DNA of 64,000 nucleotides, taken from the NCBI GenBank assembly GCA_029213195.1, contig JARGNI010000016.1:1-64000 (forward strand), in the 5' to 3' direction. This document shows, piece by piece, positions 9,852 to 24,385 of this stretch; the stretch's first letter is position 1; every line of letters begins with the position of its first letter. The position numbers were made by a program, and so were the translations under genes. The stretch is from Verrucomicrobiales bacterium. Lineage in GTDB: Bacteria > Verrucomicrobiota > Verrucomicrobiia > Verrucomicrobiales > DEV007. A model generated the notes under the pieces. The model made no database searches and was not told the origin of the DNA. It was given only the letters and a program-made list of their open reading frames with translations.

Positions 9852-11135
9852 TTACTTCTCACAAGTTCGAAACCCGGTGAACATATCATTTCGATCCGGG
9901 AAGATGGCCTGGCGATAGGTATTTCGAATCAGGCTTGCCGAGGTGGCGAGGCTGCCACCGCGAGCGGTCTTGTGGTCACCGAATTGGAGAGTCGACATGT
10001 AGGGATACATATCGACGCAGAAGCCATTGAAAGGGAGATACTGACTCGTCGTCCACTCCCAGGCGGTGCCGATCATCTGGAGACAGCCGAACGGACTCGC
10101 GCTTTCGGGAAAGGCGGTGACCGGTGCGGTGCCGGGGTTGATGCATTCCATCGCGGTCCGGGCGGTCGTACAGGATTCCGCGCCCCAGGGAAATTTCCGC
10201 GCGTCCGGGCCTCGTGCTGCGACTTCCCATTCGAACTCGTTCGGAAGCCGCCTCCCCGCCCAGTGGCAATAGGCTTCGGCTTCCCAGAAGCTGACGTGGA
10301 GCATGGGAGCGTCGGGATCGACGGGGACTTGCTCGTCGAAGCGACGAACAAGCCATTCGCCATCGAGTTTCTCCCAGTATCTCGGGCTGGCTTGCTGGAA
10401 CTGACTTCTCCAGTAGTTGCCGCCGAAGCTCCAGTGATCGGAGTCGGTGTAGCCACCGTCCTCGACGAAGGCGATGAAGTCTTCCTGCGAGACGAGGGTC
10501 CTGGAGATGCGGAAAGCATCGATCTCCTTTTCGAATCCCGGTCGCTCGTTGTCGAAGCTGAAATTTAAGGCGAGGTAGTCTGGCGCCGGGCTAGGGACGC
10601 CGATGAGGTAGGTTCCGGCGGGAATCTCTACATCTACTTTCGCATTCTCGTCCGTCGCGAACTCTGTTTCGCGAGTGTAGGAAGGCTTCGGGTAACCCAG
10701 GGTTTGCCGACACCAGATCAGGGACTCGAGATGCATCTGTTGATGGGCGACGACGTACTGACCGAGATAGGCTTCTTGATCGGTGAGACTGTTCCCGGCA
10801 GAAAGTCGGTCGATCGTTTCTCCGACGACGCGATCGTAGTAGGCGAGGGTTTCCTTCTTTGTGGGGACGACTCCGGGAGTCCAGCGTTCGCGATGAGGAA
10901 TGTCGAAAGAATCCCAGACCGTGTCGAATCCTGGCATGACGGGATCGACTCCATAGAGCGGTCGCAGCAGGAAAAATTCGTAGAAAAAGGCGGAGTGACC
11001 GATTTCCCAGATCGGGGGATTGATCCCTTTCTCGTAGGGGACATCGAGTTGGGCCTCGTCGAGATCGGCGAGGAGATCCATCATCTGGCGATGAGTGTGA
11101 TCGATGCACTGAAGGACTTGTTCCTGGAGGCTCAT
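9852..11135 (-). CDS. senA: Selenoneine synthase SenA (EgtB-like)
   Basis: Protein of 427 residues with the two-domain EgtB/SenA layout. The N-terminal DinB-like domain (about 1-165) has metal-ligand histidines in IGHSAFFYEFF and VAHQQMHLESL. The C-terminal FGE-sulfatase domain has HVSFWEAEAYCHWAGRRLPNEFEWEVAARG and AWEWTTSQYLPF. The family couples hercynine with a sulfur or selenium donor using O2 and Fe(II). The senA rather than egtB call rests on context: the selenosugar synthase gene senB ends 10 bases upstream on the same strand, and selD is divergent beyond it. ATG at 11135 is preferred because AGGAG lies 6-10 bases ahead of it; the upstream in-frame start would run into senB. No egtD (hercynine synthase) is in the window. 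Confidence 0.87.
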   Translation of the reverse strand: MSLQEQVLQCIDHTHRQMMDLLADLDEAQLDVPYEKGINPPIWEIGHSAFFYEFFLLRPLYGVDPVMPGFDTVWDSFDIPHRERWTPGVVPTKKETLAYYDRVVGETIDRLSAGNSLTDQEAYLGQYVVAHQQMHLESLIWCRQTLGYPKPSYTRETEFATDENAKVDVEIPAGTYLIGVPSPAPDYLALNFSFDNERPGFEKEIDAFRISRTLVSQEDFIAFVEDGGYTDSDHWSFGGNYWRSQFQQASPRYWEKLDGEWLVRRFDEQVPVDPDAPMLHVSFWEAEAYCHWAGRRLPNEFEWEVAARGPDARKFPWGAESCTTARTAMECINPGTAPVTAFPESASPFGCLQMIGTAWEWTTSQYLPFNGFCVDMYPYMSTLQFGDHKTARGGSLATSASLIRNTYRQAIFPDRNDMFTGFRTCEK

Positions 11136-11145
11136 CTTTCTCTCC

Positions 11146-12096
11146 TCAATCCTGCATCGCGAGGTCGACCGCGGCAAGCAAGGATGCCTTTTCTCTTTCG
11201 GGATGAAACTGATCCGCGTGTCGCAGAGCTCCGGATCGGAGGTGCTCGTAGAATTCGGGATCGAACTCGCAGTGGGTCATCAGCCTGGCGAGAGCATCCG
11301 CATCGCCTACCGGAAAAAATCCTGGGTAGTCTTCTCCGAGGAGCCCCATCACTCCATCGATCCGGGTCGAGAGCACCGGAGTTCCGTGCGCGATCGCTTC
11401 ACCGACGACCCGGGCTCCGCCTTCGCTGAGAGAAGTGAGAATGAGCAAGCGCGATCCGGCGATCAGTTTTGCAATGTCATACTCGCTGAGTTCTCCGAGC
11501 CAGACATAGCGAGGATTCTCTTTCTCCTCTTTCGCAACGAGTCTCGCGTAGTGCTCTTCGAGGATGCCGCCAGCATGATGGATCTGCATCGCAGAATCTT
11601 TTGGAAGCAGGCGGGATGCCTTTGCCGCGAGCAGGGGATCCTTCACGTTTCGGAGATGGCCTACCACGCAGGCGCTGAAAGGATGATTCGAGAGATCCGG
11701 CTTGGGGGCGAGGCACTCGGCCGCCTGGATCACAGGGACGGCGCGGTCCTGGAGCTCGACGGGGATCTGCTCGACCGCTTTTCGCTGCAGCGTGATGAGG
11801 ACGTCTGATCGCGCCATCGTATCGCGGGCTTCTTCACTGGGCTCGGGATAGATGTCGGTGCCGGTAAGGGCGAGAATGACTTTCCCCGTCGGGTTGGTCT
11901 CTCGGTATCCGAGAACGGCCTCCCGGCTCTTAGCCGCATGCAGAGCGACGAGAAGATCCGCCGATTCTCCCTCGTAGTGACCGATCGAGCGAACCTCATG
12001 ACCGGCGTCGATCAGGATTTTCTCCCATTCGGACGAAGTCTGGCGATTCCCGTTCCGGCGAACGGTGCTGACGGGGCTGTGGAGAAGAATCTTCAT
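11146..12096 (-). CDS. senB: Selenosugar synthase SenB (TIGR04348-type glycosyltransferase)
   Basis: Protein of 316 residues resembling the GT-B glycosyltransferase family found beside SenA. Family marks are the N-terminal segment NGNRQTSSEWEKIL, LLVALHAAKSREAV, VILALTGTDIYPEP, and the donor-site region LTSLSEGGARVVGEAIAHGTPVLSTRIDG. In characterised systems SenB joins selenophosphate to an activated sugar, producing the selenosugar that SenA attaches to hercynine. Its selenophosphate would come from SelD, encoded divergently 87 bases away. It is the first gene of a two-gene operon with senA. The assignment comes from recalled family features, not a database search. Confidence 0.88.
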   Translation of the reverse strand: MKILLHSPVSTVRRNGNRQTSSEWEKILIDAGHEVRSIGHYEGESADLLVALHAAKSREAVLGYRETNPTGKVILALTGTDIYPEPSEEARDTMARSDVLITLQRKAVEQIPVELQDRAVPVIQAAECLAPKPDLSNHPFSACVVGHLRNVKDPLLAAKASRLLPKDSAMQIHHAGGILEEHYARLVAKEEKENPRYVWLGELSEYDIAKLIAGSRLLILTSLSEGGARVVGEAIAHGTPVLSTRIDGVMGLLGEDYPGFFPVGDADALARLMTHCEFDPEFYEHLRSGALRHADQFHPEREKASLLAAVDLAMQD

Positions 12097-12183: not shown

Positions 12184-13245
12184 ATGTCCGAAGACACCAT
12201 CAAACTTACGTCCCTTTCATCCTGCGCAGGGTGAGCCTCCAAGCTTAGCCAGGAGGCACTCGCGCAAGTTTTGCGTGGGCTCAGTCAGTTCGAAGACCCG
12301 AATCTTCTCGTGGGTGCCAGCACCTCGGATGACGCGGCCGTCTATCGTCTCAGCAATGATCTCGCGATGGTGCAGACCGTGGATTTTTTCACGCCCATCG
12401 TCGACGACCCGTATCTTTACGGAGAAATTGCGGCGACGAATTCACTTTCCGATGTCTACGCGATGGGAGGGAAACCGATCACCGCGATGAACATCGTGGG
12501 AATGCCGGCCGATGTTCTTTCACTCGACGTCATCCGGGAAATCCTCCGAGGAGGGGCCGACAAAGTGAAGGAGGCCAAGTGTGCCCTGGCTGGAGGTCAT
12601 TCGATCAAGAACCCCGAGCCCATCTATGGGCTTTCCGTGACCGGACTGGTCAATCCCAACCGGATGATCACCAACGCGGGAGCGGAACCGGGGGATGTGC
12701 TCGTTCTCACGAAACCCCTCGGAACCGGAATCCTGACCACGGGGATCAAGCGCGGTCTCGCCGAGGGCGCGATCGTGATCGAAGCAATTTCCCTGATGAG
12801 CCGCCTCAACACCCCGGGACAAAGGCTCGCTGAGGAAGGTCTCGTCAAGTGCGCTACGGATGTCACCGGATTTGGATTGCTCGGGCATCTCGTATCCCTT
12901 TGCCGATCCAGCGGCACTCGCGCTGTGATTCATTCCAGTGACATTCCTGCGATTTCTCCGGAGATCCTCCGATTGATCGAGGAGGAAGATTGTGTACCCG
13001 GAGGAACGAAGCAGAATCTCAAGACCGCTGAGGCCGATACCCAGTTTGCGGAGCAGGTTCCCCAGGCGATGAAATATCTCCTCGCCGATGCCCAAACCAG
13101 CGGAGGCCTTCTCTGCTGCGTTCCCGAAGCAAATCTTCCGCGGGTCATGGAGATTTTCGAAGACGAGGATACGCTTTCTCACGCCGTGGTCGGTCACATC
13201 ACCCCGGCAGGGGAAGAAGGGCTGAAACTGGTCTCCGTGGTGTAG
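12184..13245 (+). CDS. selD: Selenophosphate synthetase SelD, itself a selenoprotein (UGA = Sec17)
   Basis: SelD makes selenophosphate from selenide and ATP. The full frame of 353 residues starts at ATG 12184 and contains one in-frame TGA at 12232-12234. Translated through, the N-terminus is MSEDTIKLTSLSSCAG-U17-A-S-K20, aligning with E. coli SelD Cys17 and Lys20, the catalytic pair. Downstream are the expected NLLVGASTSDDAAVY, TVDFFTPIVDDPYLYGEIAATNSLSDVYAMGG, ALAGGHSI, ATDVTGFGLLGHL and ADAQTSGGLL motifs. A conventional call would begin at TTG 12271 and lose the active site. Sec forms of SelD are known in several lineages. It heads an operon with selA, an ABC transporter and selB, and its product would also serve SenB. 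Confidence 0.93.
12235..12279 (+). promoter_or_regulatory. Bacterial SECIS-like element in selD
   Basis: Immediately after the TGA at 12232-12234 there is a 6-bp hairpin (12235-12240 with 12252-12257). A second hairpin pairs 12259-12267 with 12271-12279: nine pairs including two G-U, and a GUU loop at 12268-12270. The second apical loop begins 33 bases after the UGA and starts with G, fitting the known bacterial SECIS pattern of a loop 16-37 bases downstream with a G in its first two positions. SelB would bind here to deliver Sec-tRNA. Confidence 0.75.
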
Positions 13246-13365: not shown

Positions 13366-14778
13366 ATGAGTTCGAAAACCCCGAATCCTTTCTCCCTCAT
13401 CCCTGCGGTGGACAAAGCCCTCCACTCGCTCCAGCAGCGGGAGGACCTGGCACCTTTGCCGCTCCCTCTCGTGACGGACTTGGTCCGAGAGGCGGTCGAA
13501 TCTCTCCGCGACGAGGTGAAAGAGGGACGAACCGATGTCCCGGAGTTTGATGCCTTTGTCGAAGAAGTCGCGGCCAAGGTCGACTCTCTCTATCGTTCGC
13601 GGATTCATCCCGTCATCAATGGGACCGGGGTCTGCATCCACACCAACCTCGGGCGCTCTCCGCTGAGCCCCAGGGTCGTCGAGGCGCTCACCGGGGTGGG
13701 ACAGTTCTACAACAATATCGAGCTTGATCTCGACTCGGGGGAGCGAGGGAAGCGGGGCGGTTATCTCGAGACCTGTCTTGCGACCCTCATCGGTGCGGAA
13801 TCAGCCACGATCACGAACAATTGTGCGGCTGCCCTCATCCTGATGCTGAAACACCTCGCGAACGGAGAACGCAACGAGGTGATCATTTCCCGAGGGGAGC
13901 TCGTCGAAATCGGTGGCGGCTTTCGGGTTCCCGAGATCATGGAGGCCAGTGGAGCGAAACTGGTCGAGGTCGGGGCGACCAACAAGACCTCCCTCGCAGA
14001 CTACGAAAATGCGATCACGGAAAAGACAGGGATGCTTCTCAAGGTGCATCGTTCAAATTTCTGGATGGATGGATTCACCCACGAGCCCACCACCGAGGAG
14101 CTGGTGGAACTGGGGAAAGCGCACGACCTTCCTGTCGTCGAGGATCTCGGGAGCGGAGCGATGGTGATGACCGATTCACTCGCCCCGATCCCTCACGAAC
14201 CCACTGCGATGGAGGTCCTGCAACGTGGCGTCGACCTCGTCTGTGTCAGTGGGGACAAGCTCCTCGGTGGACCTCAGGCCGGAATCATTGCGGGACGCGC
14301 CGATCTCGTCGCCGGGATCAAGAAGGAACCGTTCTTTCGCGCGTTGCGTTGCGACAAGCTCATTCTCACTGCGATGCAGGAGACCATCGTGGAGTATCTT
14401 GGCACGGAGTCCGGGCAGAAACCGGAGCTGCCTCTCATGAGAATGCTTTCGGCGAGCGTGGAAGGGGATCTTCGTCCAAGGGCCGAAGCAATCATGGCGG
14501 AGCTGAAGGACCTTGAGGAATTGGAGATCGGCACGGTGGAGACCATTGCTCGATGTGGCGGAGGAACGATGCCCAAAGCCGAGATTCCTTCCCTGGCGCT
14601 CGATATCCAGCCGAAGACGATGAGTCTTCCCAAGTTGGCGAAAAAGTTGCGAGAGCGAGAGTTACCTCTCATGGGGTACGTTGCCGAAGACCGGTTTCGG
14701 ATCGATCTGCGAACCGTTTTCCCAGAACAGGATCAGAAACTTTCCGAAAATTTTCTCGCAATTTTCGGTAAGTTTTGA
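13366..14778 (+). CDS. selA: L-seryl-tRNA(Sec) selenium transferase SelA
   Basis: PLP enzyme of 470 residues that converts seryl-tRNA(Sec) to selenocysteyl-tRNA(Sec) with selenophosphate. Motifs include the N-terminal IPAVDKALHS, HPVINGTGVCIHTNLGRSPLS, the cofactor lysine K298 in SGDKLLGGPQAGII (E. coli K295), and the C-terminal CGGGTMPKAEIPS. The start is set at M-S-S-K-T-P; an upstream in-frame alternative adds a short unconvincing extension. It follows selD by 120 bases and precedes the transporter genes on the same strand. Length is normal for the family. Confidence 0.96.
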   Translation: MSSKTPNPFSLIPAVDKALHSLQQREDLAPLPLPLVTDLVREAVESLRDEVKEGRTDVPEFDAFVEEVAAKVDSLYRSRIHPVINGTGVCIHTNLGRSPLSPRVVEALTGVGQFYNNIELDLDSGERGKRGGYLETCLATLIGAESATITNNCAAALILMLKHLANGERNEVIISRGELVEIGGGFRVPEIMEASGAKLVEVGATNKTSLADYENAITEKTGMLLKVHRSNFWMDGFTHEPTTEELVELGKAHDLPVVEDLGSGAMVMTDSLAPIPHEPTAMEVLQRGVDLVCVSGDKLLGGPQAGIIAGRADLVAGIKKEPFFRALRCDKLILTAMQETIVEYLGTESGQKPELPLMRMLSASVEGDLRPRAEAIMAELKDLEELEIGTVETIARCGGGTMPKAEIPSLALDIQPKTMSLPKLAKKLRERELPLMGYVAEDRFRIDLRTVFPEQDQKLSENFLAIFGKF

Positions 14779-14885: not shown

Positions 14886-15818
14886 ATGTTGAAAAGTAAT
14901 CTTTTCCGCGTCGGTCTGGCAGCGGTAACTACTCTGGCCCTTGTCGGCTGCGGTGGTGATCCGTCGTCGGCTGACAATAACAAAACCCCTCCGGAAGCTC
15001 CTTCCGCTACCTTCTACCTTTCGGCGATTCCCGACGAGAAGATCACCGACCAGAAGGTGAAGTTCGACAAGCTCGCGGACTACCTCACGGCTCAACTCGG
15101 AGTCGAAACCGAGTTTGTCTTCTCCAAGGACTACGCCGATTCCGTGACCAAGTTCAAGAATGGAGAAGTCCATCTTGTGTGGTTCGGAGGTCTTTCCGGC
15201 GTCCAGGCTCGCATGGCTGTGCCCGGATCCGAAGCGATTGCCCAAGGCAAAGCTGACCCGAAATACAAGTCTTACATCATTGCGAACAAGGATGCGGGTC
15301 TGGAGCCTGCTGAGGCGTTTCCAGCAGCAATCAAGGACAAGACTTTCACCTTTGGTTCTCCTGGTTCGACTTCCGGTCGTCTCATGCCGACTTTCTTCAT
15401 CATGCAGAACAACGGCGGAGTGCACCCCGACGAGTGGTTCGCGACGAAGCCTGGTTTTCAAATGAGCGGTGGTCATGTAGCCACGGCCAACGCAGTTGCG
15501 GACGGGACCTACGAGACGGGAGCGATCAACTACAAGACCTACGACTCCCTCGTGGAGAGTGATCCCAAGATCGCGGACAACACCGTCAAGATCTGGACGA
15601 CTCCGTTCTATGCCGACTACAATTTCACGATCCATCCGGATGTGAAGAAGGCATTCGGCGATGACTTCATCACCAAGGTGCAAGCCGCATTGGTTGCCGC
15701 GCCCGCTGGCTCGGAGGCCCTCAAGGCGATCAACCGTGAGGCCATCATTCCTGCGAAGAACGAAGACTTCGACGGTATCAAGGACACCGCGATCCAAATG
15801 GGCCTCATCGAAGGCTGA
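14886..15818 (+). CDS. PhnD-like ABC transporter substrate-binding lipoprotein (putative selenium oxyanion uptake)
   Basis: Protein of 310 residues with a lipoprotein signal: M-L-K-S start, hydrophobic segment, lipobox L-V-G-C at about residues 18-21. The mature part matches the phosphonate/phosphite periplasmic binding family: SAIPDEKITDQKVKFDKLADYL, VHLVWFGGLSGVQAR, TFGSPGSTSGRLMPTFF and the ETGAINYKTYDSLV segment. It would capture the substrate outside the inner membrane for the ATPase and permeases downstream. Placement between selA and selB, with no C-P lyase or phosphonatase genes, argues for a selenium compound. A selenate-type branch of this family has been annotated next to sel genes elsewhere. 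Substrate remains inference. Confidence 0.85.
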   Translation: MLKSNLFRVGLAAVTTLALVGCGGDPSSADNNKTPPEAPSATFYLSAIPDEKITDQKVKFDKLADYLTAQLGVETEFVFSKDYADSVTKFKNGEVHLVWFGGLSGVQARMAVPGSEAIAQGKADPKYKSYIIANKDAGLEPAEAFPAAIKDKTFTFGSPGSTSGRLMPTFFIMQNNGGVHPDEWFATKPGFQMSGGHVATANAVADGTYETGAINYKTYDSLVESDPKIADNTVKIWTTPFYADYNFTIHPDVKKAFGDDFITKVQAALVAAPAGSEALKAINREAIIPAKNEDFDGIKDTAIQMGLIEG

Positions 15819-15881
15819 TCTGCATTGTCACGGGCGCCAGGGATGGGAACATGATCCCATCCTCTGCCCGATTTCTCTTCC

Positions 15882-16655
15882 ATGTCGCATTCCATTCAGC
15901 TTGAGAACGCGACATGCCGATTTGGAGACCTCGTCGCTGTCGACGAGGTCTCTTTTTCTATCGAGGCAGGAGAGCGAGTCGCCTTCATTGGCCCCAGTGG
16001 CAGTGGAAAGACGACCCTGATCCGCCTCATCAACAGCATGCGGGTTCCCGACGAGGGAACGGTAACTGTGTTGGGCGAAGGTATCGCCGATTTGAAGGTG
16101 AAGGAGTTGCGAACCCTTCGAGCACGAGTCGCTACGATTCCTCAACACCTCGGACTTGTCGAGAACCTCACGGCAATCCAGAACGTCATCCTCGGTCGAG
16201 GAGGGAAACGAGGAACCTTTCGATCCCTGCGTGATCTCCTTTTCCCCAGTCGGAAAGACCAGGAAACGATTCACGCCCTCCTGGACCGAGTCGGGATCGA
16301 AGACAAACTTTTCACGCGAGTCTCTCAGCTTTCCGGTGGGCAACGTCAGCGCGTCGCGATTGCACGGGCCCTTTTCCAGGAGCCGGATGTGATTCTTGCG
16401 GACGAACCCGTTTCCGCCGTCGATCCCGCCCGGGCACGGGATACTGTGGACTTGCTCTGCTCCCTGTCCGAGGAAGATGGCTACACGCTTTGTGTCAGTC
16501 TCCACCACCTCGAACTGGCCCGGGAGTTTTTCCCCAGGCTGATCGGGTTGCGGTCCGGAAAGGTGGTTCTCGATGGCGCTCCGGAAACCCTGCAGGAGTC
16601 CGAACTCACCGAACTCTACGAGTTGTCGGACGAAGAGATGATGGCCGATGCCTGA
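15882..16655 (+). CDS. PhnC-like ABC transporter ATP-binding protein
   Basis: ATPase of 257 residues. Walker A GPSGSGKTT is at about 37-45, the Q-loop at IPQHLGL, the signature LSGGQRQRVAIARAL near 150, Walker B DVILADEP near 170 and the H-loop at SLHHLEL. The sequence context (GRGGKRGTFRSLRDLLFPSRKD insertion before the signature) resembles PhnC-type ATPases. The gene lies 63 bases after the binding lipoprotein and its end overlaps the first permease by eight bases, so it is translationally coupled. It energises the transporter embedded in the sel operon. Confidence 0.92.
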   Translation: MSHSIQLENATCRFGDLVAVDEVSFSIEAGERVAFIGPSGSGKTTLIRLINSMRVPDEGTVTVLGEGIADLKVKELRTLRARVATIPQHLGLVENLTAIQNVILGRGGKRGTFRSLRDLLFPSRKDQETIHALLDRVGIEDKLFTRVSQLSGGQRQRVAIARALFQEPDVILADEPVSAVDPARARDTVDLLCSLSEEDGYTLCVSLHHLELAREFFPRLIGLRSGKVVLDGAPETLQESELTELYELSDEEMMADA

Positions 16656-17577
16656 CCTCGATCCAGGGAAAGAACGAGCAAGCCTCGAACGAGGAGGCCT
16701 TGCATTGCCCTCGGGCGAGGGACGGTATGGGCGTCGCCGCTGGGTCGTCCTCGGAGTCGGGATTGTCTTCCTGATTTGCGCCTGGAGGCTGGGCCTCACT
16801 CCCGCCGGGCTGATTCCTCCTGACGCGACGCGTTGGGAAAGGGCGGGGGAGTTTTTCAAAGCAGCCCTGGATCCGGCGATGGACTACGAGGACGAGAATG
16901 TCCCCGACGATGCCGATCCCATCTGGATCAAGGGGCTCAAAGGAGTCGGGCTGACCCTGAAGTTCGCCTTCGGGGCGATGAGCATGGCGGTGCCTTTCGC
17001 TCTTCTGCTAGGATTTCTCGGCTCTTCTTCCTGGTGGCCGGAACCCTGTGGCAAGGGATTGAAGGCCGTTTTGCGGACACTTTATCTCTCGTGCCGATTT
17101 CTGATGAGCCTGTTGCGTTCGATCCACGAGTTGATCTGGGCTTTGCTTATCCTATCCGCGATCGGGGTTTCGCCTCTCGCGGGCATGGTGGCGCTCGCCC
17201 TGCCATTCTCAGGAACTCTGGGAAAGGTCTTCTCGGAACTCATCGATGAAGAGGCGCGTGACGCCGCTGCCGCGCTCAAAGCGATCGGGCACCGACCGGT
17301 GCAGACCTTTCTCTGTGGGACTTTGCCCGCTGCCTTGCCGAATCTCATTACCTACAGCTTCTATCGATTCGAATGCGCACTTCGTTCTTCCGCGGTGCTC
17401 GGGTTTGTCGGGATCGAAACGATCGGACTCTACATCGAGCTCTCGCATGAAGAGTTCTACTATCGCGAAGTCTGGACCTATCTCTATCTCCTGCTCGCCC
17501 TCATCGTTCTGGTCGATTTCTGGGGTGCTGGGATCCGCAAACGACTCAACTCAGATGCGGGAGGGTGTCGGGCATGA
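16648..17577 (+). CDS. PhnE-like ABC transporter permease, first copy
   Basis: Membrane protein of 309 residues with about six hydrophobic segments, the first near residues 30-50. The BPD_transp-type coupling region is visible as DEEARDAAAALKAIGHRPVQTFLCGTLPAALPNLITY, followed by FECALRSSAVLGFVG, a pattern typical of PhnE proteins. It overlaps the ATPase gene by eight bases and the second permease by four. Two non-identical permeases in one operon indicate a heterodimeric channel, as seen in some phosphonate-type transporters. Confidence 0.88.
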   Translation: MPDLDPGKERASLERGGLALPSGEGRYGRRRWVVLGVGIVFLICAWRLGLTPAGLIPPDATRWERAGEFFKAALDPAMDYEDENVPDDADPIWIKGLKGVGLTLKFAFGAMSMAVPFALLLGFLGSSSWWPEPCGKGLKAVLRTLYLSCRFLMSLLRSIHELIWALLILSAIGVSPLAGMVALALPFSGTLGKVFSELIDEEARDAAAALKAIGHRPVQTFLCGTLPAALPNLITYSFYRFECALRSSAVLGFVGIETIGLYIELSHEEFYYREVWTYLYLLLALIVLVDFWGAGIRKRLNSDAGGCRA

Positions 17578-18467
17578 ACGATCGGATCGTTGAGCTTCGC
17601 AAACGCCGTTCGAAGAGTCTCTATCTTCGGATCAGCGGACTCCTTGTCCTCCTGGGAATCGCCTGGGCATGGACGACGAGTTCGCCCCTCATGGGACGGC
17701 TCTCGGCAGAACGTCGCTGGACGAACTTTCAGAACTTTGTCCAGGAACTGGTTCCTTCTCCGGTCCGAAGGACTGGCGATTGGAGCGACGCTTTTCCATG
17801 GGCCTGGGATCTCCTCACCGATGAAGGGCTCCAGGCCTTGCTCACGACGCTGGGGATTGCCACGGCCGCGATCATTCTCTCTGGGGTTTTCGTTCTGCCC
17901 ATGCTCACCCTGGCGAGTCGCGAGTTGAGTCGGCGTCGACCTTTTGGGCTTTGGTCAGGGAAATCTTCCCGTGTCATGCAGGCCGTGCGTGTTGTCGTGG
18001 GTCCGGTAACTCGATTTGCGTTCGTGCTCGCGAGGGCGGTGCCGGAATACATCCTCGCTTTTCTCCTCATTTCCCTGCTCGGGCTCCAGGTCTGGCCGCT
18101 CGTCCTCGCCCTTGCGATTCACAATTTTGGAATTCTCGGGCGGCTCTGGGGCGAGGTCGTCGAGAATGCCGAGCCTTCTTCGGCACAGCAGGCCCTGATC
18201 TCCGGTCAGGGGAGAACCGGGGCCTTTGCAACTCGAATTCTCCCAGAGAGCTTCAATCGATTTCTGATCTACTTTCTCTACCGATGGGAGACCTGTGTCA
18301 AAGATGCTACCGTTCTTGGAATGCTGGGATTGCTGACTCTCGGAAAACTCATTGCGCTTTCGAAAGGCTTTTTCTGGGACCAGATGTTTTTCTATGTCCT
18401 CCTCGCGGCCTCCGTGATCGTGATCGGGGACCTCTTTTCGACTTTCCTGCGGCGCCGTTTGCGCTAA
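17574..18467 (+). CDS. PhnE-like ABC transporter permease, second copy
   Basis: Membrane protein of 297 residues. ATG at 17574 overlaps the preceding stop in an ATGA junction. A GTG nine bases earlier is possible but less likely. The first membrane segment is at about 20-35, with further ones beyond residue 90. The coupling region reads WGEVVENAEPSSAQQALISGQGRTGAFATRILPESFNRFLIYFLYRWETCVKDATVLGMLG, equivalent to that of the first permease, although overall similarity appears low. It ends 12 bases before selB, tying the transporter to the selenocysteine machinery. Confidence 0.88.
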   Translation: MNDRIVELRKRRSKSLYLRISGLLVLLGIAWAWTTSSPLMGRLSAERRWTNFQNFVQELVPSPVRRTGDWSDAFPWAWDLLTDEGLQALLTTLGIATAAIILSGVFVLPMLTLASRELSRRRPFGLWSGKSSRVMQAVRVVVGPVTRFAFVLARAVPEYILAFLLISLLGLQVWPLVLALAIHNFGILGRLWGEVVENAEPSSAQQALISGQGRTGAFATRILPESFNRFLIYFLYRWETCVKDATVLGMLGLLTLGKLIALSKGFFWDQMFFYVLLAASVIVIGDLFSTFLRRRLR

Positions 18468-18479
18468 GTAAAGAGCCTC

Positions 18480-20423
18480 ATGTCGTCCCGCCATTACATC
18501 ATCGGAACCGCTGGTCATATCGACCACGGCAAGAGCTCGTTGATTGAAGCGCTGACGGGGACCGATCCGGATCGACTTCCCGAAGAGAAAGCGCGCGGCA
18601 TGACGATCGAGTTGGGGTTTGCCCAGCTCAGTCTCCCGGCGAGCGACGATTCCAGCGATGAACTGGCCCTCGGGGTCGTCGATGTTCCGGGTCATGCCGA
18701 TTTCGTGAAAAACATGGTCGCCGGGGTCGGGGCAATCGATCTCGCTCTTTTCATCGTCGCGGCCGACGACGGGTGGATGCCCCAGACCGAGGAGCATTAC
18801 CAGATTCTCAACTATCTCGGAGTGAAGAACGCCGTTGTCGTTCTCACGAAGGTCGACCTCGTCGACGATCTTGATTTGGTCTTGATGGATCTCGAAGAGA
18901 ACCTGGAGGGAGGGCTCTGGGAGAAAGCCCCGGTGATGCCGGTTTCTTCACACACCGGCGCGGGGATTGAGGAACTTCGGGCGACCATTTCCCAGATGCT
19001 GACCGAATCGGGTCCGGTGCGAAACGTCGGGAAACCTCGGTTGCCCGTGGATCGCGCTTTTTCCCTCAAAGGTGTCGGGACGGTTGTCACGGGAACCCTG
19101 ACCGATGGAGATATCGAAGTCGGGAGCGACTACGCGATCCAACCCGGAGGCGAGATCGCTCATGTTCGAAGTGCCCAATCTCATGGAGCCTCGGTCGAAT
19201 CGGTTCCCCCCGGAACGCGAACCGCGGTCAATCTCACTGGAGTCAGTTTGCGGGAAAGCCGGGGAGTAGCACGCGATGGAATCGCACGGGGAGATGTCCT
19301 CGTTCCGCAGGGATTTGGAGATGCCTCTCTCGTCATCGATGTTCGGATTTCGAAATCCAATCGAGAGATCCGGGGGATGAAGCAATCGAAGAAGGCGATC
19401 CGGACCGGACGAGAGGTCATGTTTCACCACGGCAGTTCGGGAGTGCCGGCGAGAATTCATTTTCTCGGGCAGCGTTCTCTTTCACCCGGCGAGACTGTGC
19501 TCGCCGAGCTTCGTTTCTCCGAGCCTGTGTATGTATTTGTCGGGGACGGTTTCGTGATTCGCGACGCTTCGCTGGGGCTGACCCTGGGAGGTGGAATCGT
19601 TCTCGACGAGAATGCCAATCGAAGGGCCTTCCGAAAGCCGTTCCAGGCGGCCTTTCTCGAAGCCCGGGCAGAGAATCCGCACGAGCTATCCGTATTGGTG
19701 AAATCGCAGTTGATCCGGGACCGGGTTGCCTTTCTCCCGGATCTGCTCAAGAGATCCGGTTTCTCAGAGCAGGGCATCCGGGAAGAAGCGGAGAAGCTCG
19801 TCGCCGAGGGGGAGTTGGAGCAGAACGGCGACTGGGTCTTTCTCGCTGAATGGTGGCGGAAGATTCGGACGATTGCCGGAGACAAAGTCCGAAAGATTCA
19901 CCAGGATCATCCCGAGCAATTGGGCCTGCCTTTGCGCGACCTTCGAGCGATGATGGAGCCCGAGCTGCCTTCGCCCAAATTCTTCGACATGGTCCTCGAA
20001 GGTCTCCTCGCCGGTGAGTTCGCAAAAGCGGGTCCCAACATCCGACAGCAGGACCACATTCCGCAGCTCCCTCCCGAGTTGAAAAGTTCCGGAGACCTCG
20101 TTCGCAAGCGCTTGGCTTCGGATTTGATCAGTCCTCCCAACAAGGGCGAGACGGCGACCAATGCGAACGAGGAGAAGGCGCTTCGTTTTCTCGTCCACAC
20201 CGGAGAGGTCATCGATCTCGATCCCAAGACCGTGATCTCGCGGGATGGATTCGAAAAGATTCTCTCAGAGATCGTCGGCTACCTGGAGGAGCATGGAAAA
20301 GCAACCGCCAGCGACCTGCGCCAGCACACGGGAACGGTTCGACGAATCCTGATGCCATTGCTCGAGCTTCTCGATGAGCGAGGTGTGACGGTTCGAGAGG
20401 GTGACGACCGACGTCTGAAGTAG
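18480..20423 (+). CDS. selB: Selenocysteine-specific elongation factor SelB
   Basis: Translation GTPase of 647 residues that delivers Sec-tRNA(Sec) to UGA codons bearing a SECIS. The GTP-binding domain shows G1 [12 protein letters not shown], the MTIELGFAQ effector region, [12 protein letters not shown] (G3) and LTKVDLVD (G4). Domain II follows with [19 protein letters not shown]. The C-terminal third holds the winged-helix repeats that bind SECIS RNA, ending with the [27 protein letters not shown] module. It is last in the sel/transporter operon. Its presence supports reading the two in-frame UGA codons in this window as Sec. Confidence 0.96.
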
Positions 20424-20491: not shown

Positions 20492-21295
20492 ATGCCAGTT
20501 GCTCGTCTCTTTTGCTATTTCGTGCTCCTGGTCCTCGTGTCCGGTATCGTTGGCTGTGGGAAATCCAGGAAAGAGCGAGAGCGAAAGGATTTGGAATCCC
20601 GAGTAGTAGCTCAGGAGCTTCAGCGGAAGAATCAGATCGAAGGTCGAGCGGGATTCGAGAAGGCGAACCAGGCAGACGTTGTCGTTGAATATTTCGAGAT
20701 CCCCGCGGTCATGGGGGGACAGCTTCAAAATTCCGAGACTTTCAACCCTGATGCAGATGGGTTTCGACGAGAGGTGCAGCTGCTGGCAAAATCAGGCCAA
20801 GCCAAGCTGCGCGAATTGATGGTCGCTCAGGTCAAAAGGGGCGTCGAGGCTCGATCGGTCTCGTTGCAGGAAGGTTTTGTCCCGGTCGTTGATTCGATCG
20901 ATCCGGAACCGGAAGGGCCAGCCTCCGAGTCGACGGAGGAAGGCGATTCAAGGGAAGAAGGGGAGATTGCCGCTCAGACTGAGCAGGAGAAGAAGCGTGT
21001 GAAGTTTCAAGAAGAAGAGCATCGCTCGTTTCTCCAAGTGAAGTGGACCGACGATGCGAGTCACTTGCCGGGTGAGATCTCTCTCGACATGGCTTCTGTT
21101 CTTGCCATCCCATTCCCGGCGGGGCATGAGGGCGAAAAATACTCACTATTTCATCGCATCGAAACCAACTCCCGTGTCACACTCCGGAACGGTCGCTATG
21201 CGGTGATGGGCGGGGGACGACTTCCCTCGGAAATTGCGAATTCCGAATACGAGGGTTCCATGATTGTCATTTTCCTGAGAGTAGACCGGTTTTGA
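20492..21295 (+). CDS. Lipoprotein related to downstream secretin-like paralogues
   Basis: Protein of 267 residues with a lipoprotein signal (hydrophobic segment about 6-19, lipobox V-G-C). The mid region is charged and disordered-looking, with an acidic Glu/Ser stretch and EEGEIAAQTEQEKKRVKF. The C-terminal part, NSRVTLRNGRYAVMGGG to MIVIFLRVDRF, matches in layout the last 60 residues of the next three genes, where it resembles the end of a secretin domain. It is probably the membrane-anchored member of the set. No known function. The next gene begins at the base after its stop. Confidence 0.7.
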   Translation: MPVARLFCYFVLLVLVSGIVGCGKSRKERERKDLESRVVAQELQRKNQIEGRAGFEKANQADVVVEYFEIPAVMGGQLQNSETFNPDADGFRREVQLLAKSGQAKLRELMVAQVKRGVEARSVSLQEGFVPVVDSIDPEPEGPASESTEEGDSREEGEIAAQTEQEKKRVKFQEEEHRSFLQVKWTDDASHLPGEISLDMASVLAIPFPAGHEGEKYSLFHRIETNSRVTLRNGRYAVMGGGRLPSEIANSEYEGSMIVIFLRVDRF

Positions 21296-22279
21296 ATGAT
21301 GAGGAAAACGGTCTGCTCGAAGGGTGTCTTTCTACTCGTCCTCGTTAGCCTTGGGCTTACCTGGGCAGGTGGCGGAGATCTCTTCGTCGAGACTTACCAG
21401 ATCCCGAAGGAGCGATTCCCGAGCGAGGCTCTCGAAGAGCGATCAATCCACGAACTTCTCGAGGTTTCTGGAATGGAATTCGGTGAGGGGGCGTCAGCAT
21501 CCGCTGATCTTGAGGAGAGAACCATCACCTTGATCAATACCGAGGAGCAACTGACCCTTTTCGAAAGCTGGCTGCAGGGAGCGGAGACCAAGGGGCCGGG
21601 AGCGATCCATCTCATTGCGGAATGGATCGAGGTCGAGGCTTCCCTCTATCACGACTGGATGTTCGAAAATCGGATCACGAAGGATGGGACACCTCTGCGG
21701 AGGCAGGCCCAGGAGTGGGTTCGGGACGAAAGTGCGACCATCGTGGAGACGGTGGTCTTGCAGAGCCGGACCCGAGTCGAATCGCGGTCGGAGTCGTTTT
21801 CCTTTCTGATCTATCCCTCCGAGGGCGATCCTCCGGAGATTCCTTCGAAAGTTGATTTGTCCGGAGCGGATAGCAAGGCACCGATGACGGGAGGCATCAG
21901 CGCGGCTTTTGAGTGCCGAAATGTGGGCACCAATCTCTACACCGTGACGGCACTGGCGAGCGACAATGAAACGATCGATGTCAACCTGAACGCGTATCTC
22001 GTCGAGGAGAATGGCCGGACCGAGTGGCCTCCTCACGACGGGCATCCGCTGGTGGTGATTTCGAATCCGAAGTTTTACACCATGGGGGCCCTTACCCAGG
22101 TCACGGGGCGCCATGGCCGCTACAGTTTTGTAGGGACGATGAAACCGCGCAAAGCCGCGAGGGAAGATCGAAAAAATCCTCTCGTCTTGATGTTTGTGCG
22201 AGGGGATGTGGTGAAGTCCCTGCCCAAAAATCGGGTGAAGTATGTCCCGGGGAATCAAACAGAAGGAGATGCAGAATGA
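21296..22279 (+). CDS. Secreted secretin-like paralogue 1
   Basis: Protein of 327 residues with a signal peptide (about 1-25). An N-terminal segment (residues 45-105) has the pattern of a secretin N domain: ERSIHELLEVSGMEFGEGASA then TITLINTEEQLTLFESWL. The shared block SLYHDWMFENRITKDGTPLR follows, then AFECRNVGTNLYTVTALASDNETIDVNLNAYLV and QVTGRHGRYSFVGTMKP, which resemble the G-x-x-L-x-V-x-P and T-x-V-x-x-x-D-G-x-x-x-x-G-G pieces of a secretin core. It is too short for an outer-membrane pore. It begins at the base after the upstream stop and overlaps the next gene by four bases. Confidence 0.72.
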   Translation: MMRKTVCSKGVFLLVLVSLGLTWAGGGDLFVETYQIPKERFPSEALEERSIHELLEVSGMEFGEGASASADLEERTITLINTEEQLTLFESWLQGAETKGPGAIHLIAEWIEVEASLYHDWMFENRITKDGTPLRRQAQEWVRDESATIVETVVLQSRTRVESRSESFSFLIYPSEGDPPEIPSKVDLSGADSKAPMTGGISAAFECRNVGTNLYTVTALASDNETIDVNLNAYLVEENGRTEWPPHDGHPLVVISNPKFYTMGALTQVTGRHGRYSFVGTMKPRKAAREDRKNPLVLMFVRGDVVKSLPKNRVKYVPGNQTEGDAE

Positions 22280-23265
22280 AACGTGGACTCGCCATCGCTT
22301 TGATTCTCACGTCGGTCGTCGTTTCTTCGTCCCGGATAGGCCGGGCCGAGGAACAGGTGGAGACGCGATCGTATTCGTTTCCAAGAATCGTTCTTGTCGA
22401 TGATACGGCGGGGAACCCGGAGAAAAAGAAGCTCCACCCGATCACTCGTATCCGGAACCTCTTTGCGGAAAAGGGGGTCGAGATCAAGGAGGAAGACGTC
22501 GTCGAATTCGACTTTCGAAACGAGGTTCTGTCGGTCACGGCCGATGTCAAACGGCTCGAACAGTTGGAGGAGGAGTTGCCGCATTTTCACGAATTGGCGG
22601 CTCGGCAGCAACTCCACATCATCCTGGAGTTTATTGAGGTAGAGGCTTCGCTCTATCACGATTGGATGTTCGAAAATCGCATCACGGGAGACGGTCGTCC
22701 ACTTCGCGAGAAAGCCCAAGCGTGGGTCAAAGCGGACCAGGCAAGCGTAATTGAAACCGTCGTCCTCACTGCGCGATCCGGACAGCGGGCAAAGTCGGAA
22801 TCCATCAGCGAGGTCATCTATCCCACGGAGCCCGGAGTTCCAGAGATTCCCACTAAGATTTCGTTAGAGGGACCGAATACGAAAGCACCGGAACTTCCTG
22901 CAACTTCCTCTGCCTTCGAGACACGCAATGCCGGTTCGACCCTCGAAGTCGACCCTGTTCTCGGCCCCGATCAGAAAACGGTGGATGTGAACCTGTCTCC
23001 CGAAATGGTTCGTTTGAATGGAGTGATCGATTGGCCCCCCGAGAATGAGCTACCGTTCTTTACCGTATCGATGCCTCGGTTCTACACGATGAAGATCACG
23101 ACCCAGGTGACCCTGCGTCACAACGGGTATGCTTTCCTTGGAACCACCACTCCGTTGCGTGCTTCCGTCGAGGGGCGCCGTCCGATCGTCCTAATGTTTG
23201 TCCGTGCCGATGTTGCCGTGCCGACTTCCTTTTCACTTCAACCTTCCGATTCCGAAAATGAGTAA
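22276..23265 (+). CDS. Secreted secretin-like paralogue 2
   Basis: Protein of 329 residues with a signal peptide (about 1-25, GRAEE). It shares with its neighbours the SLYHDWMFENRIT block, the TARSGQRAKSES segment, AFETRNAGSTLEVDPVLGPDQKTVDVNLSPEMV and QVTLRHNGYAFLGTTTPL. The start ATG at 22276 overlaps the previous stop in an ATGA junction; a much longer upstream frame is rejected because the signal peptide begins here. Sequence similarity to paralogues 1 and 3 indicates tandem duplication. Function unknown; a periplasmic or outer-membrane assembly is inferred. Confidence 0.74.
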   Translation: MKRGLAIALILTSVVVSSSRIGRAEEQVETRSYSFPRIVLVDDTAGNPEKKKLHPITRIRNLFAEKGVEIKEEDVVEFDFRNEVLSVTADVKRLEQLEEELPHFHELAARQQLHIILEFIEVEASLYHDWMFENRITGDGRPLREKAQAWVKADQASVIETVVLTARSGQRAKSESISEVIYPTEPGVPEIPTKISLEGPNTKAPELPATSSAFETRNAGSTLEVDPVLGPDQKTVDVNLSPEMVRLNGVIDWPPENELPFFTVSMPRFYTMKITTQVTLRHNGYAFLGTTTPLRASVEGRRPIVLMFVRADVAVPTSFSLQPSDSENE

Positions 23266-24385
23266 ATGCCACATTGTATCGATTCTCTTTCTCGTCCTGT
23301 TTGCCGGTATGGTGACAGGGCAGGAGTCCAAGGGGCAGAACGAGAAAAAGCCGGAGGAGGCACCCGTGGTGACCGAAGGGAAGCCTGTTCCTGCGAAGCC
23401 TGTTCCGGCTGAGCCTGTTCCGGCTGAGCCTTCCAAGACACGGGTTCTTGTCACGAGGACCTATCAGGTTCCCAGCGATTTGCCCAATCAGTTGAAGGCC
23501 GTGAAAGTGCAAGCCAAGCCGACGGACTCTTATGCCGATCCCTTTGCGGCTCCGGAAGTGGGGGCTGTACCGCTGCGGGTCGAGGAATCTGTCGAAGAAG
23601 TATTGAAGGCACTGGGGGTCTTTTTCACGGAAGGAACCAAGGCCGAGTTCAGAGAGACAGAGGCACGGCTTATTGTGACCAACACGGCCGAACAACTTTC
23701 CCGGGTGGAAGAGATCCTGGAAGAGGTGCGGAGCCGGGGATCCAAGGTCATTCACATCTATGTCGAGTATATCGAAGTCGATCACACCGAGTTTAGTGAC
23801 TGGCTTTTTTCCAATGTGCTTGATTCCGACGGGACGGAGCTTCGAAATGAAGTGCAAAAATGGATACGCGAAGGGCGGGCCGAGATTATCGAGTCTGCCA
23901 CCGTGGCGGCTCGGTCAGGGCAGCGCGCCAAGACTGAGTCCATCGACGAATACATTTACCCGACTGAGTACGATCCGCCGGAAATTCCGACGGAAGTCAC
24001 TCTCAAGGATGGGGCCGAGGCACCGGTCTCTGCGGTGACGCCCACCGCGTTCGAGACGCGGAATGTGGGAGTGACCGTGGAAGTCGATCCGGTGATCGGG
24101 GCAGACGATCGGACCCTCGATATCAATATCGCACCCGAGATTGTAAAGCTGGAAGAGATCCGGCATTGGCACCACCAGGCGACGGACCCCAAGTTCAAGA
24201 CGCACATGCCCACCTTCTACACGATGAAGCTGACCACCCAGGTTACGGCAACCGACGGTCGCTATGCCTTTCTCGGTACGACGCGTCCTCTCAAAGCTGC
24301 GGATCCGAAGCGCAAGAACCCGATCGTGCTGCAGTTCGTGCGAGGGGATGTCGGTTCGATCCTCGATTGGGGAGAGGAAAAGTAG
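23258..24385 (+). CDS. Secreted secretin-like paralogue 3
   Basis: Protein of 375 residues with a signal peptide (about 1-20, G-M-V-T-G-Q). A Lys/Glu/Pro-rich spacer contains PVPAKPVPAEPVPAEP repeats. The domain order is as in the other paralogues: an N-domain-like region VEESVEEVLKALGV...LIVTNTAEQLSRVEEIL, the AARSGQRAKTESIDEYIYPTE block, and secretin-like FETRNVGVTVEVDPVIGADDRTLDINIAPEIV ending QVTATDGRYAFLGTTRPL. It overlaps paralogue 2 by eight bases. This member shows the clearest secretin resemblance. The real pore-forming secretin, if any, is not in the window. Confidence 0.75.
   Translation: MSKCHIVSILFLVLFAGMVTGQESKGQNEKKPEEAPVVTEGKPVPAKPVPAEPVPAEPSKTRVLVTRTYQVPSDLPNQLKAVKVQAKPTDSYADPFAAPEVGAVPLRVEESVEEVLKALGVFFTEGTKAEFRETEARLIVTNTAEQLSRVEEILEEVRSRGSKVIHIYVEYIEVDHTEFSDWLFSNVLDSDGTELRNEVQKWIREGRAEIIESATVAARSGQRAKTESIDEYIYPTEYDPPEIPTEVTLKDGAEAPVSAVTPTAFETRNVGVTVEVDPVIGADDRTLDINIAPEIVKLEEIRHWHHQATDPKFKTHMPTFYTMKLTTQVTATDGRYAFLGTTRPLKAADPKRKNPIVLQFVRGDVGSILDWGEEK

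Follow-up and report, generated by a model that had tools for sequence, protein, structure and literature searches.

A TIGR04553 transporter encoded between selA and selB in a verrucomicrobial genome is a candidate selenium importer

The closest described relatives of the transporter considered here are built around picocyanobacterial PhnD1, a substrate-binding protein (SBP) published as phosphite-binding and as part of a possible phosphate importer. All picocyanobacteria have PhnD1 (PMC8786288). Its hosts are unable to use phosphite unless a second system is present, its gene is not regulated by phosphorus in some strains, and its role has been called unknown (PMC5700983, PMC10284923). Prochlorococcus and Synechococcus also carry a SelD fusion and ybbB (PMC1273633). 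The word 'selenium' is absent from the main text of PMC5700983 and PMC10284923, and we found no selenium test of TIGR04553/PhnD1 proteins in the open-access literature. Reviews published in 2022 and 2026 know of no selenium transporter in prokaryotes that is both specific and of high affinity (PMC9312934, PMC13188914). We analysed a stretch of 64,000 nucleotides (the window, G000:C21:1-64000) from a verrucomicrobial draft genome that is 95% complete, in which four transporter genes lie between selA and selB. We conclude that they probably encode an SBP-dependent ATP-binding cassette (ABC) importer that supplies the neighbouring genes for selenophosphate, selenocysteine and selenoneine with selenium, with selenite, as HSeO3−, the likeliest ligand.

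The first of the four genes (14886..15818, + strand) encodes a lipoprotein SBP of domain family PF12974, with an ATG start at 14886 and the lipobox LVGC. It scores 259.3 bits against the NCBIfam model TIGR04553 (260 over the whole open reading frame, ORF), above the curated cut-off of 250. A PhnC-type ABC ATPase (15882..16655, +; PF00005) carries the motifs GPSGSGKTT (Walker A), LSGGQ and LADEP and is closest to TIGR02315 PhnC at 245 bits, below the cut-off of that family. Two PhnE-type permeases with PF00528 follow, one with five hydrophobic segments (16648..17577, +) and one with six (17574..18467, +); TIGR01097 PhnE is the only such family that either matches, at 164.8 and 112.9 bits and below its cut-off. 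The SBP gene starts 107 bases after the end of selA at 14778, the ATPase and permease 1 genes overlap by eight bases and the two permease genes by four, and the stop of permease 2 lies 12 bases before the selB start at 18480. For permease 2 we use the ATG at 17574, where the ORF table gives an earlier GTG at 17565. Coordinates and profile matches thus agree with the original prediction in the kinds of genes, their overlaps and their distance to selB. That prediction had also mentioned a branch of the family, near sel genes, annotated as putative selenate transport, and the SBP falls into it: TIGR04553 is the hypothetical equivalog 'putative selenate ABC transporter substrate-binding protein', so that, by profile assignment, this type of transporter already has a putative selenate name in databases. 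The window locus shares with this family an SBP over the cut-off, accompanying ATPase and permease genes and the company of selenium genes; it differs in that its two permeases are separate proteins, whereas their counterparts in Rhodobacterales, Sphaerotilus and Aeromonas are fused into a single permease.

The PhnCDE-type architecture would also suit a true phosphonate (C-P) importer, a reading that we regard as very improbable. On the PhnD equivalog TIGR03431 the SBP reaches 114.7 bits, far from the curated cut-off of 261.1, and it retains the capping Tyr, which in PhnD1 keeps bulky phosphonates out. The C-P lyase genes phnI, phnJ and phnM are absent from the window, in line with the prediction that phosphonate catabolic genes are missing, and the only match to the phnL profile in the window is the ATPase described above. 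An SBP from a true C-P lyase operon (genome G223) falls into a different clade from the window SBP in a tree of 29 SBPs.

In the same tree, PhnD1 groups with the TIGR04553 proteins in a single clade (100/99), distinct from that of PtxB (100/99) and from PhnD, and PhnD1 itself exceeds the TIGR04553 cut-off at 325 and 295 bits. The closest solved structures by sequence are PhnD1 proteins (7S6G, 5LQ5, 5LQ8), and the structure model of the window SBP (predicted local distance difference test score 83.8) has its nearest folds among the same PhnD1 structures (Z 28.6-28.8), with 5LQ8/7S6G at Z 28.8. The residue table shows that all PhnD1 contacts are kept: Tyr83, Ser161-Thr162-Ser163, His197, Asp244, the capping Tyr245 and its partner Asp50. 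The features that mark the PhnD1 clade (Asp-Tyr cap, Ser-Thr-Ser motif, His and Tyr contacts) are therefore all present in the window SBP. The two differ in that PhnD1 has Phe90 where the window SBP has Tyr127, and in that PhnD1 genes lie beside tesA, whereas the window SBP lies beside sel genes. PtxB of Pseudomonas and Trichodesmium shares the fold, the Ser-Thr-Ser-His motif, the capping Tyr and a Tyr at the 127 position, but it belongs to a separate clade, is linked to a ptxD-type dehydrogenase and has a Gln-Tyr cap, in contrast to the Asp-Tyr pair common to all TIGR04553 proteins compared.

Near pH 8, selenite is substantially HSeO3− and pyramidal like phosphite, and selenate at neutral pH is a bare dianion. 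The conserved Asp244 corresponds to a hydrogen-bond acceptor in PhnD1, where the donor is a protonated oxygen of the ligand (PMC5700983). Since this Asp implies a protonated ligand, the pocket points to selenite where the family name says selenate, and overall we consider selenite somewhat more probable than selenate as the cargo. A selenate importer would accord with the name of TIGR04553 and with Haft and Self, who suggested in 2008 that a subunit of a phosphate transporter encoded near an orphan selD serves in selenate transport (PMC2276186); against the pocket chemistry and the hypothetical standing of the equivalog, we hold it to be improbable. The original prediction had allowed for a selenium oxyanion or an organoselenium compound. 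An organoselenium cargo appears unlikely because the capping Tyr, by analogy with PhnD1, would leave a small pocket.

The similarity to PhnD1 equally raises the main rival, a phosphite or low-affinity phosphate importer, as PhnD1 is published, that sits in the selenium island by happenstance. PhnD1 relatives bind phosphite best and the contact residues are conserved in the window SBP (PMC5700983, PMC10284923), but PhnD1 hosts cannot use phosphite (PMC10284923), and the present host already has another candidate system. Its closest SBP paralogue (C79:181208-181945) groups with PtxB and is accompanied by genes for an ATPase, a permease, a D-2-hydroxyacid dehydrogenase and a LysR regulator, which together form a ptxABCDE-like operon (G000:C79:179000-183000; L079 6463-10922). 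This paralogue combines membership of the PtxB clade with a PtxD-type dehydrogenase neighbour; the window SBP has neither, and no PtxD-like dehydrogenase was found within the window. Judged by its gene content, the C79 set is a ptx-like phosphite operon separate from the selenium island, and a second phosphite importer in the sel operon would thus be redundant.

The gene neighbourhood recurs in related genomes. We compared 24 loci from GTDB genomes; the nearest homologues of the window were found in Verrucomicrobiales, where most loci show the order selD-selA-SBP-ATPase-permease-permease-selB as far as the flanks allow. In nearly every Verrucomicrobiales locus with sufficiently long flanks, selA lies upstream and/or selB downstream, which argues that the arrangement is not due to chance. 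Two loci (L033 9302-14412, L024 971-7000) have SBP and ATPase genes and lack adjacent permease genes, which may be lost, moved or affected by an assembly problem. Selenium neighbours of other kinds occur elsewhere: the order is mnmH-ATPase-permease-SBP-selD in Sphaerotilus, the SBP adjoins selD and mnmH in a genome of another verrucomicrobial class (G086), and in Paracoccus marcusii the transporter is divergent from fdnG...selA-selB. These independent mnmH/selD and selA/selB neighbours speak against a phosphite/phosphate importer.

The association extends to genomes in which the genes are not linked. The window's family is represented by 74 genomes, of which 44 are SBP-positive (40 over the cut-off, 4 near it or split) and 51 have selD; 42 have both, 2 the SBP only, 9 selD only and 21 neither (Fisher p 1.7e-9). 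The original prediction had named a spread of homologues without regard to selenium genes as evidence against it; instead, selD accompanies the SBP in 42/44 genomes, and the two exceptions are 54% and 62% complete. In family genomes at least 90% complete, the corresponding numbers are 26, 0, 2 and 15. Because linked genes get lost together, the count was repeated outside the window's genus, where 9 of the 10 SBP copies examined are not beside the selenium genes searched for (one of the 10 is from Eisenbacteria). There, 19 genomes have both, 2 the SBP only, 7 selD only and 13 neither (p 3e-4); by genera, the counts are 10, 1, 0 and 6 (p 6e-4). In a sample of 240 genomes from the phylum, all three SBP-positive genomes are among the 19 with selD, and PhnD-like proteins below the cut-off show no significant link to selD. 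Four such paralogues (G096, G189, G023 and G223, first selD check) are all from genomes without selD, the last of them from within the C-P lyase operon. SBP presence therefore predicts selD in the window's family, also where the transporter is unlinked to it, and relatives of the transporter are almost confined to selenium-using bacteria. Since SBP presence tracks selD even when unlinked, a phosphite/phosphate importer appears unlikely, if slightly less so than a selenate importer.

Several observations weigh against selenium import. PhnD1 binds phosphite at 0.05-4 µM and phosphate at 7-180 µM (PMC5700983, PMC10284923). The Fisher p-values given above ignore the relatedness of the genomes and thus overstate the evidence. 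The relation between SBP and selD is one-way: most selD genomes are without the transporter, which is therefore not required for selenium use. In the Eisenbacteria set, 39 of the 41 genomes with selD have no transporter, and the co-occurrence count is uninformative there because selD is present in 41 of 47 genomes. No selenium gene adjoins the Aeromonas copy or the remaining plasmid copies of Rhodobacterales, but the Aeromonas and Rhodobacter CZR27 records, those covered by the selD check, hold selD elsewhere, which counts in favour of selenium import. Finally, the host draft, at its 95% completeness, yielded no tRNA-Sec: Rfam RF01852 matched ordinary tRNAs only, and the tRNA-Sec of a relative used as query gave no convincing match. 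In relatives, tRNA-Sec lies near the selenium island (L018 2469, L019 3724, L023 3748, L027 7291, L032 3045).

On balance, selenium import is the best-supported reading because the TIGR04553 cut-off is passed, the gene order is conserved, the selenium neighbours of homologues are independent and selD is tracked when unlinked. This part of the original prediction stands, with selenite preferred to selenate. We regard selenium as the substrate as likely; specificity for it is putative, based on sequence comparison. The lipoprotein would trap a trigonal trioxyanion between its two lobes via Tyr83, Ser161-Thr162-Ser163, His197 and Asp244, with Tyr245 closing the pocket, and import of the trapped selenite would fall to the permease pair and the ATPase. 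Within the cell, selenite would be reduced to selenide, which SelD would turn into selenophosphate for SelA and SenB.

The surrounding island has the order senA-senB / selD-selA-[transporter]-selB. A senA-like gene of the selenoneine synthase/EgtB family (9852..11135, −) scores 400.5 bits against SenA NF041186, just below the cut-off of 420, and 267.8 against EgtB (cut-off 360); senB, for selenosugar synthase (11146..12096, −), passes the TIGR04348 cut-off of 300 at 309.8 bits. Both, which the original prediction does not mention, are divergent from selD, and with them the island would serve selenoneine as well as selenocysteine. Among related loci, senB and the senA-like/senB pair are present in some and absent from others. 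The selD gene (12184..13245, +; TIGR00476 379.6 bits with one TGA read through) has an in-frame TGA at the catalytic position (SSCAG[TGA]ASKL, within 12184-12285), as in most relatives; a search for a selenocysteine insertion sequence found a hairpin 3' of this TGA whose energy is not unusual (z −1.66). The flanking selA (13366..14778, +) scores 521 bits against TIGR00474, and selB (18480..20423, +) passes the TIGR00475 cut-off at 301.5 bits. After selB, four consecutive ORFs occupy 20492-24385, of which the last three share motifs (e.g. SLYHDWMFENRIT) and are possibly tandem duplicates.

The locus ties an annotated family to selenium use through genome-wide co-occurrence, to which the present analysis adds the link to PhnD1 and the association with selD when unlinked. 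The transporter is probably a dedicated selenium importer. The best-studied TIGR04553 members are the PhnD1 proteins. It is conceivable, although we would not yet call it probable, that the whole TIGR04553/PhnD1 clade, including PhnDCE of all Prochlorococcus and marine Synechococcus, constitutes the missing selenite-specific bacterial importer, and that phosphite binding by PhnD1 may reflect mimicry of pyramidal, singly protonated selenite.
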